The notes beneath the pieces were generated by a model. It made no database searches, was not told the DNA's origin, and saw nothing but the letters and a program-made list of their open reading frames with translations. A program made the translations under genes and the position numbers. DNA of 39,474 nt from an uncultured Butyrivibrio sp. (GTDB lineage: Bacteria; Bacillota; Clostridia; Lachnospirales; Lachnospiraceae), in NCBI GenBank assembly GCA_947168335.1, contig CAMVLM010000018.1, positions 1 to 39,474 of the forward strand. Direction: 5' to 3'. This document shows, piece by piece, positions 15,338-20,419 of this stretch (position 1 is the stretch's first letter; each line of letters begins with the position of its first letter).

Positions 15338-16459
15338 TTATTCCTCAACCAGGACTCCGCATACTACAAATCTAAGCTCATCTTTATCTGTGCAGGTAGA
15401 CAGAGTCACGACCTTCTTTGTGTCATTGACAATAATCTCAGAATCCATATAGGATTTACGTCTAACAGGTTCTGCATCATGTACAAAATCCTTTGATGCC
15501 TCTGCAACATAATCGTATATTACATAGTCATTGGGAACATCCATATACGCAAATATTTCATATTTATTTGTTGTGTCCCCCGTAACTATATAGAAATATC
15601 TGTGATCTTTGATATACTCAGGATCTTTTCTGAAATTTCTAAGACTTCCAAACATTGTACGGTCCTTCATATTATGACCATATACAATTGAATTCGAATC
15701 TGAAAAATCAGCTGATGACCTGTAATCAAGGAAAATAGCTCCGGTATTTGCAGGTTCGCCATCATACCCTAATTCCAGATATTTCTTATTATCCCCGCAT
15801 TGCATAATAGGATAATTTACAGAACCATCTTCAAAATAAACCCATCCAACAGTTTCAGGATACTTTTCGATATATGCCGCCAGATCATTTACAACATTAT
15901 CAGTATTAGTCTTTGTTACAACCACTTCGTCACTGCTTTTGACTGTTTCAGATAAAGAATCACCATTGCCTGTTTTTTCTGTGGTTTCAGAAGACTCTGA
16001 AGTTTCTACATCTTTAACCTCATTGGAAGCTGCTTTAGTCTCAACTTCTTCTGAATTTTCAACAGTTTCAGCCTCTTCTGACGCTTCTGTCGTTTCTTCT
16101 TTTTCTTCTTCTGACACCTTTGTCGTCTCTTCTAATGTTTCCTCTGTTTTTGCTATAGCAGAGTCAGATTTTTCTGCATTATCAGTCTGTCTGGTATCTG
16201 ACAACGGAGAAACAAATCTGCTGCACAAATACACTATCACCCCAATGCATATAACACCGACAAGAAGTATTCCCGCTTTCTTTCTAAAAAACCCGAATAA
16301 CTCACATATTTTCTCCGGAATATATAAAATAATACTCAGAAACACCATCAGACCAAGCGTTAAGTATGTTATAAGCTTTGCGTTATTTCTATGTCTGGTA
16401 ATATGGCCTCTGGCCTTTAAAACCAGTTTTGTAAAGATCTTTTTCTTAAAATTATTCAC
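15338..16459 (-). CDS. Class B-like sortase with long acidic stalk
   Basis: A 373-residue cysteine transpeptidase. The start is GTG (16459) with a weak AGAAG site. Two hydrophobic segments (about 28-47 and 62-80) precede a low-complexity Glu/Thr/Ser stalk (about 88-185). The extracellular sortase domain follows. The catalytic His is in IVYGHNM (about 260), the Cys in TLSTCT (about 355) and the Arg in LRFVVCG. YPIMQCGDNKKYL and the overall layout fit class B or a related class. It would attach proteins to peptidoglycan or to each other. No protein with an LPxTG/NPxTN-type sorting tail occurs in the window, so its substrate is elsewhere. Confidence 0.91.
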   Translation of the reverse strand: MNNFKKKIFTKLVLKARGHITRHRNNAKLITYLTLGLMVFLSIILYIPEKICELFGFFRKKAGILLVGVICIGVIVYLCSRFVSPLSDTRQTDNAEKSDSAIAKTEETLEETTKVSEEEKEETTEASEEAETVENSEEVETKAASNEVKDVETSESSETTEKTGNGDSLSETVKSSDEVVVTKTNTDNVVNDLAAYIEKYPETVGWVYFEDGSVNYPIMQCGDNKKYLELGYDGEPANTGAIFLDYRSSADFSDSNSIVYGHNMKDRTMFGSLRNFRKDPEYIKDHRYFYIVTGDTTNKYEIFAYMDVPNDYVIYDYVAEASKDFVHDAEPVRRKSYMDSEIIVNDTKKVVTLSTCTDKDELRFVVCGVLVEE

Positions 16460-19153: not shown

Positions 19154-19447
19154 ATGGAACCAGTAAAAAGTATTGACGCGGAAGACGATCAGTTTGCATA
19201 CCGCTATGACACACAACTCCTTATTGACAGAAGAGATAAGGATCTTGATGAAGACGAAATAGCTGACTACATAACAACACATTTTGAGGGTAATTCCCTG
19301 ATCGCTGCAGGTGATGAGGAACTCGTTAAGATTCATTTTCATACAAATGAGCCTTGGAAAATCCTTGAATATTGCAATACTGTAGGAGAAATCTACGACA
19401 TTGTAGTAGAGGACATGATCAGACAGTCAGCCGGAATGCAGGGTTAA
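19154..19447 (+). CDS. Free-standing FakA C-terminal-like (DegV/DAK-related) module
   Basis: This 97-residue protein matches only the final part of FakA/YloV-type fatty-acid kinase subunits. Its YRYDTQLLID, EIADYITTHFEGNSLIAAGDEELVKIHFHTNEPWKILEY and GEIYDIVVEDM correspond to the YxYxTEF..., GDS(L/V)xVxxDdelvKvHvHt and GELxxIkIeNM blocks. The DAK2 kinase domain and middle domain are absent, and there is no open frame for them upstream. AAAGGAGGAATT precedes the ATG and a terminator follows, so it looks like a real small gene and not the end of a broken one. It may be a regulatory or lipid-binding module; function inferred only. Confidence 0.72.
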   Translation: MEPVKSIDAEDDQFAYRYDTQLLIDRRDKDLDEDEIADYITTHFEGNSLIAAGDEELVKIHFHTNEPWKILEYCNTVGEIYDIVVEDMIRQSAGMQG

Positions 19448-19470
19448 TCCCGTTGAAAGAATTACCGACA

Positions 19471-19505
19471 AAAATGGCAGCCCATCTGAATGGACTGCCA
19501 TTTTT
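19471..19505. terminator. Bidirectional terminator
   Basis: AAAATGGCAG and CTGCCATTTTT pair across a 14-base loop, with T-runs on both strands. It separates the FakA-like module from the converging NifX-SlyD gene. Confidence 0.87.
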
Positions 19506-19516
19506 AGCGTTTTTTA

Positions 19517-20419
19517 TCAGCTTACAACTTCTACAAGCTCTATTCTGAAGTTGAGCTCTTTTCCTGCCATCTCGTGATTTGCATCAAATGTGATGGTCTT
19601 GTCATCCTTATCTGTAACCTTTACAGGGAAAGGTCTTCCGTACATATCCTGAAGGTAAACCTGCTGGTCTACACTGAGGTTTTCAGCTCCGGGCATTTCT
19701 GCAATATCAACAGTGAAAATTGCCTCCGGATCCACCTCTCCGTATGCCTCCTCAGGCATAAGATGGATATCTACAGTCTCTCCGACCTCCATGTTTGCTA
19801 CTGCAACGTCAAAACCGTGAATCATCATTCCCATTCCGCACACGAATTCAAGGGGCTCACCTCTGTCATATGATGAATCAAACTGTGTACCATCATTAAA
19901 TGTTCCCTTATAGTGAGCACGTACGGTTTTTCCCGCATTTTTTCCCTCGATAATGGGACCACCATGGCATCCGTGGCAACCGCCGCAGCCGCCTTCTTCA
20001 TCATGACAGCCACCGCATGATTCCTCCTCGTCATGGCATCCGCCACAACCATGCTCTTCTTCATGATCTCCGCAGGTATGTCCTTCTCCATGGTGATCAC
20101 AGTTTACACCTGTATTGATAAGCTCACCCTTAAGGTATGCCTCAACAGCATCATCAGTATTTCCTGATGCACCTGCGCAAAGCTCAATACCATTCTCTTC
20201 AAGAGCAGCCTGAGCACCACCGCCGATACCGCCGCAAATAAGAACATCGATGTCCTTTCCTGCAAGAAGTCCTGCAAGTGCGCCGTGTCCGCTTCCTTCT
20301 GAACCTATAATCTCTGAAGACTGAACATTTCCGTCTTCTACGGTATATACTTTAAATTCCTGAGTATGACCAAAATGCTGAAATACTTCTCCGTTTTCAT
20401 ATGTTACTGCAATCTTCAT
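19517..20419 (-). CDS. NifX/NifB-like domain fused through a Cys/His-rich linker to an FKBP (SlyD-type) prolyl isomerase
   Basis: A 300-residue protein. Residues 1-104 are a dinitrogenase iron-molybdenum-cofactor-type domain (MKIAVTYENGEVFQHFGHTQEF, DVLICGGIGGGA). Residues 107-153 are a linker with nine Cys and nine His, including three CGGCH units at a ten-residue period. Residues 155-300 are a SlyD-type FKBP with the inserted chaperone flap: VRAHYKGTFNDGTQFDSS, HGFDVAVANMEVGE, PEEAYGEVDPEAIF, FDANHEMAGKELNFRIELVEV. It is probably a soluble metal-binding folding factor. SlyD proteins carry a metal-rich tail used in nickel delivery; here the metal region sits between domains. It is a single gene with its own terminator. 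Confidence 0.88.
   Translation of the reverse strand: MKIAVTYENGEVFQHFGHTQEFKVYTVEDGNVQSSEIIGSEGSGHGALAGLLAGKDIDVLICGGIGGGAQAALEENGIELCAGASGNTDDAVEAYLKGELINTGVNCDHHGEGHTCGDHEEEHGCGGCHDEEESCGGCHDEEGGCGGCHGCHGGPIIEGKNAGKTVRAHYKGTFNDGTQFDSSYDRGEPLEFVCGMGMMIHGFDVAVANMEVGETVDIHLMPEEAYGEVDPEAIFTVDIAEMPGAENLSVDQQVYLQDMYGRPFPVKVTDKDDKTITFDANHEMAGKELNFRIELVEVVS

Follow-up and report, generated by a model that had tools for sequence, protein, structure and literature searches.

A conserved fusion of a NifX/ORP-type domain, a Cys/His-rich linker and a SlyD-type FKBP in gut Lachnospiraceae: a candidate metallochaperone

The stretch of DNA that we have analyzed (39,474 nucleotides from an uncultured Butyrivibrio sp., hereafter the window) encodes a protein in which a NifX/ORP-type domain (PF02579) is followed, from the N to the C terminus, by a 47-residue Cys/His linker and a SlyD-type FKBP carrying its insert-in-flap domain. 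This fusion is a real, conserved protein of many gut bacteria. The role that we favor for it, at a probability of about 0.5, is that of a cytosolic metallochaperone that would couple a carrier of metal or Fe-S to a folding chaperone. The presence of both domains and the linker within one ORF had been proposed in an earlier note made from the sequence alone, and was borne out by Pfam, NCBIfam, AlphaFold and Foldseek (Table 1). The Pfam profile search found no domains other than PF02579 and PF00254 in the protein, the Mrp/NBP35 P-loop ATPase domain being absent, and AlphaFold models of 20 natural sequences had two confident domains with a disordered stretch (residues 108-153) between them.

Table 1. 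Coordinates of the fusion gene, its parts and associated features (window positions, except for the paralogue).
Feature	Position	Strand	Details or basis
Whole fusion ORF	19517..20419	-	300 aa, ATG start
NifX/ORP-type domain (PF02579, dinitrogenase Fe-Mo cofactor fold), residues 1-100	20120..20419	-	Pfam, alignment, AlphaFold, Foldseek
Cys/His-rich acidic disordered linker, residues 107-153	19961..20101	-	Composition, alignment, AlphaFold pLDDT
SlyD-type FKBP prolyl isomerase with insert-in-flap chaperone domain, residues 161-299	19523..19939	-	Pfam, PRK10737, Foldseek
Hairpin flanked by A5/T5	19470..19505	.	Fold -26.6 kcal/mol, z -6.7 vs shuffles
L002 paralogue, DUF134-NifX-Cys/His tail	contig C72 432-1229		Host genome

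A scan of genome contigs recovered at least 581 stretches in which a relative is encoded, from which the best 80 were kept and checked for the full fusion. The same domain order, which the earlier note had suggested searching for, was found in every one of these best 80 of at least 581: all span both halves, with 63-77% identity in the best segment, and they belong mostly to Butyrivibrio, Pseudobutyrivibrio, Blautia and other Lachnospiraceae. The full-length fusion is present in 31/200 genomes of the host family (an even sample, one per genus) and in 4/399 across the phylum, of which three belong to the host family and the fourth to a different one. Mean pairwise identity reaches 74% in the NifX part and 75.5% in the FKBP part, against 43% in the linker, as would be expected if both domains were under selection and the tether needed its composition alone. 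Nearly invariant along the alignment are H15-F16-G17, H45, C62, C81, C107, H110, H114, C116, C151 and C194, of which the HFG motif, H45 and C62 are invariant in the NifX/ORP domain. Metagenome-assembled genomes (MAGs) labelled Synergistes (L043), Solobacterium (L070) and Christensenella (L075) also bear the fusion, at about 71-75% identity; they may be mislabelled bins or cases of lateral transfer.

The N-terminal half matches PF02579 (Nitro_FeMo-Co) at residues 9-97 (E 2.2e-21, 76.4 bits vs a curated cut-off of 26.3), is modelled with a pLDDT of about 84-96, and has PH0822 (2yx6) and TM1816 (1o13) among its Foldseek matches. The term NifX-type, as used in the earlier note, should be taken to cover the fold only, the score against the NCBIfam nifX equivalog being 19.2 bits, under its cut-off of 112. 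The best NCBIfam match of the first 100 residues is instead the ORP domain of MrpORP (80 bits vs a 450-bit cut-off), with the match spanning the last 100 positions of that model; scores so far below the whole-protein cut-offs, for MrpORP as for SlyD, are expected because the protein is a fusion. His35 of NifX ligates NifB-co and NifX passes it to NifEN (PMC13128457), while His121 of NafY, located in an HFG motif as in NifX, binds FeMo-co (PMC8496260). The fusion shares with both the PF02579 fold and this cofactor-ligating histidine (H15-F16-G17), but it falls far under the nifX cut-off, bears an FKBP and has no recurring neighbor genes. The Di-Nase domain of MrpORP binds a cluster assigned as [3Fe-4S] and opens with CxHFGHCE and closes with CDH, both proposed as ligands (PMC6345978). 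HFG and the terminal CDH motif occur in the fusion as well; unlike MrpORP, it has neither cysteine of CxHFGHCE and no Mrp/NBP35 ATPase. C81 (window 20177-20179) is a Cys in 22/25 fused proteins vs Tyr, Leu or Phe in 19/19 unfused NifX relatives with a tail, and is possibly a ligand or redox site specific to the fusion.

The linker contains nine Cys and nine His among its 47 residues, exactly as had been counted before, and starts with a CDHH motif. These two amino acids make up 38% of the linker vs 4% of the remainder of the protein (binomial p 8e-14), and the AlphaFold pLDDT is <50 over 108-153. The ten-residue repeat CGGCHDEExx described in the earlier note fared only in part: CGGCH does appear at 125, 135 and 145, but the complete CGGCHDEE occupies 125 and 135 only, the third unit being CGGCHGCH, and CGGCHDEE was found in 0 of the 80 homologues (best 80 of at least 581). 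As a conserved trait the ten-residue repeat is thus ruled out, being unique to the window copy; homologue linkers mostly have a period of about nine residues (46/78 scored), and no tandem array was found in the linker DNA. Across 81 sequences the linker varies between 28 and 99 residues, with 4-12 Cys, 4-14 His and, on average, 9.0 D/E vs 0.56 K/R. Judging by these alignments, what is conserved is the richness in Cys and His together with a CxHH start, rather than the CGGCHDEE repeat.

The C-terminal half is recognized as PF00254 (FKBP_C) at residues 161-231 (E 1e-21, 77.5 bits vs a curated cut-off of 21.1). Its residues 169-298 align with positions 12-139 of PRK10737 (SlyD, NCBIfam), the insert-in-flap domain being covered, although the score (61.7 bits) does not reach the whole-protein equivalog cut-off of 174. 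The best Foldseek matches were FKBP12-IF(SlpA), FKBP12-IF(SlyD) and Thermus SlyD. The fusion is thus like SlyD (E. coli, Thermus) in its FKBP fold with an insert-in-flap domain, and differs from SlyD of the E. coli type by having no C-terminal His/Cys tail, the Cys/His segment and the NifX domain standing N-terminal to the FKBP instead. The ORF stops at the end of the FKBP domain, and just 3/80 homologues (best 80 of at least 581) have any Cys or His within their last 15 residues.

A way to approach the origin of the linker is provided by relatives in which the two halves are separate. A Cys/His-rich C-terminal tail is found in 19/19 unfused NifX relatives, with a CxHH start in 18/19 and a mean of 3.7 Cys and 9.0 His; no tail is present on the unfused relatives of the FKBP half, whose identity to the fused version reaches 75%. 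The most fitting interpretation of the linker is therefore that of a C-terminal NifX/ORP tail, lodged between the two domains. The same comparison rules out a displaced SlyD tail: the likeness that the earlier note had drawn to the nickel-binding tail of SlyD is one of composition, and the descent appears to be from the NifX/ORP tail. Trees of each half were weakly resolved and are compatible with a single origin of the fusion, after which it would have been lost twice on the FKBP side. In a tree of this kind, two unfused FKBP genes (L105, L106) fall among the fused FKBPs and keep a GRNVGK lead-in, which suggests a secondary splitting of the fusion. A simple motif test recognized a DUF134 domain ahead of NifX in 8/19 of the unfused relatives. 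Such DUF134-NifX-tail proteins (PF02001 + PF02579), of which the host genome has one (L002), contain a 60%-identical NifX domain and a Cys/His tail of the CDHH type, but differ from the fusion in their N-terminal DUF134, in having no C-terminal FKBP and in the Tyr/Leu/Phe at the C81 position. The DUF134 domain of L002 gives a weak sigma-70 region 4 match, and at its end the gene overlaps with the beginning of two paired chromate transporter ORFs.

The surroundings of the fusion gene name no partner. No recurring operon partner was found in 80 clustered loci, synteny being limited to a few close Butyrivibrio relatives; a same-strand ORF lies within 80 bases upstream in 16/77 loci and downstream in 24/79, with identities that vary by locus. 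The gene appears to form a transcription unit of its own, and the hairpin next to it is probably a bidirectional terminator that ends its transcript. Convergent with it, at 19154-19447 of the forward strand, is a 97-aa ORF that contains only the middle domain of the FakA/YloV fatty acid kinase (PF21645); it lacks the kinase part, there are stop codons just upstream, and the ORF is probably a gene remnant. Further away in the window (15338-16459, reverse strand) a class B sortase-like protein is encoded, with a long stretch ahead of its sortase domain and an srtB score just under the cut-off (143 vs 154 bits).

In the metallochaperone reading, the protein would consist of two separately folded cytosolic domains joined by a flexible tether of metal ligands. 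The NifX/ORP domain and the Cys/His tail would bind a transition metal or, somewhat likelier, a small iron-sulfur species, with putative ligands in the HFG histidine and in the CDHH motif that opens the tail. The SlyD-type FKBP would bind unfolded or apo clients through its insert-in-flap domain and catalyze prolyl isomerization, and the tether could bring the metal to the client while this is still open. We infer from homologues that the NifX half binds a cluster and that the FKBP half acts as a chaperone and isomerase; that both halves serve one client, and the identity of the metal, we only infer.

We favor a carrier half plus a client-binding half because of the homologies around HFG (NifX, NafY) and CDH (MrpORP). 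The earlier note had likewise proposed one protein that holds metal and folds the receiving apo-enzyme, and this core remains plausible since the domain order is conserved and the His-Phe-Gly motif is kept in the NifX half; the connection of the linker to the SlyD tail, an association with nickel enzymes and the name NifX in any sense beyond the fold are not supported. Also in favor is that no second SlyD-type FKBP was found in the host genome (86% complete), and that in one genome of another family (G340), which additionally has an unfused SlyD-type FKBP, a DUF134-NifX-tail gene (L125) is directly followed by that of an Mrp/NBP35 Fe-S carrier ATPase, a pair that resembles a split MrpORP. Against it count that no conserved neighbor names a client, that the CxHFGHCE cysteines are absent, and that Mrp adjoins in 1/16 of the DUF134-NifX neighborhoods, which have no consistent partner. 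It likewise counts against the reading that related genomes retain SlyD-type FKBPs and NifX-tail proteins in unfused form, so that neither activity strictly needs the tether. A more specific version, which we put forward only tentatively, is that of a metal or Fe-S insertion co-chaperone of anaerobic gut Clostridia, in which cofactor handover would be physically coupled to folding of the apo-enzyme, assisted by the prolyl isomerase, and the linker would act as relay between the two domains.

The main rival to the metallochaperone reading is a metal buffer, store or sensor, in which the NifX domain and tail would sequester or sense metal and the FKBP would be a general folding factor tuned by it. 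We regard this as possible, if rather doubtful. The fusion of the same NifX-tail module to the regulator-like DUF134 in L002 hints at ligand sensing or binding, and a linker of variable length and conserved composition fits a buffer of low specificity. A precedent is IssA, of the same PF02579 fold family, that stores Fe-S as thioferrate with the assistance of its tail (PMC5524996). Both proteins have a PF02579-type (IPR003731) domain and then an unstructured tail (PMC5524996), but that of IssA is cationic, aromatic and glycine-rich with one Cys, whereas the fusion linker is acidic, Cys/His-rich, nearly without Lys or Arg and followed by an FKBP. Moreover, both folded domains are strongly conserved, which points to a role beyond passive buffering.

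An improbable alternative is a nickel metallochaperone, in which the linker would store nickel as the tail of E. coli SlyD does, while the protein would serve in the maturation of LarA, urease, CODH or [NiFe]-hydrogenase. This view draws on SlyD as the nearest fold, with a C-terminal domain that in E. coli binds nickel (PMC11198818), on the composition of the linker, which is similar to that of the SlyD tail, and on HypB, which is encoded in the host genome and in a sampled congener (G143). However, the linker matches the NifX tails, not that of SlyD, and the check on co-occurrence with hydrogenase or other metalloenzyme genes, suggested in the earlier note, gave no association for nickel enzymes. 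Using curated cut-offs, we have compared 34 genomes with the fusion to 46 mostly complete members of the family without it (hand-picked for completeness, not a random sample). HypB was present in 14/34 vs 12/46, CODH (CooS) in 7/34 vs 15/46, LarA in 4/34 vs 4/46 and urease (UreC) in 4/34 vs 5/46 (all p > 0.2); at least one of the four was found in 21/34 vs 26/46, i.e., no association (Fisher p 0.65). Of the 34 fusion genomes, 12, a few of them incomplete assemblies, have none of these markers, also if LarA matches of lower score are included. Nor do nickel genes recurrently adjoin the fusion in the 80 loci, and no Rfam family, the NiCo riboswitch included, was found in the window; near the fusion gene there were no riboswitches, the sole match in 11 homologous loci being a distant TPP riboswitch. 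The fusion thus does not go together with any known nickel enzyme, although it may still have some role with nickel.

Finally, a chance join, an assembly artifact or a recent functionless gene fusion, which has in its favor nothing but that the window belongs to a fragmented genome assembly, is ruled out to our satisfaction by spread and conservation, the fusion being intact across many genera, in isolates and MAGs, with both halves held within one open frame in the homologues.

Both halves belong to known families and metal tails are known on both, but their combination is apparently undescribed; we found no paper on a NifX-SlyD fusion among the open-licence papers searched, though one may exist elsewhere. 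If the protein were only a metal buffer, it would be a minor variant. Little is documented about how strict anaerobes supply their apo-proteins with Fe-S (PMC6345978) or with metals, and, if the metallochaperone reading is true, one protein that unites a carrier with a folding chaperone would offer a way into the timing of cofactor insertion relative to folding. The fusion is conserved in many common gut genera, among them Butyrivibrio, Pseudobutyrivibrio and Blautia, and its naturally unfused relatives are ready controls on the importance of tethering.
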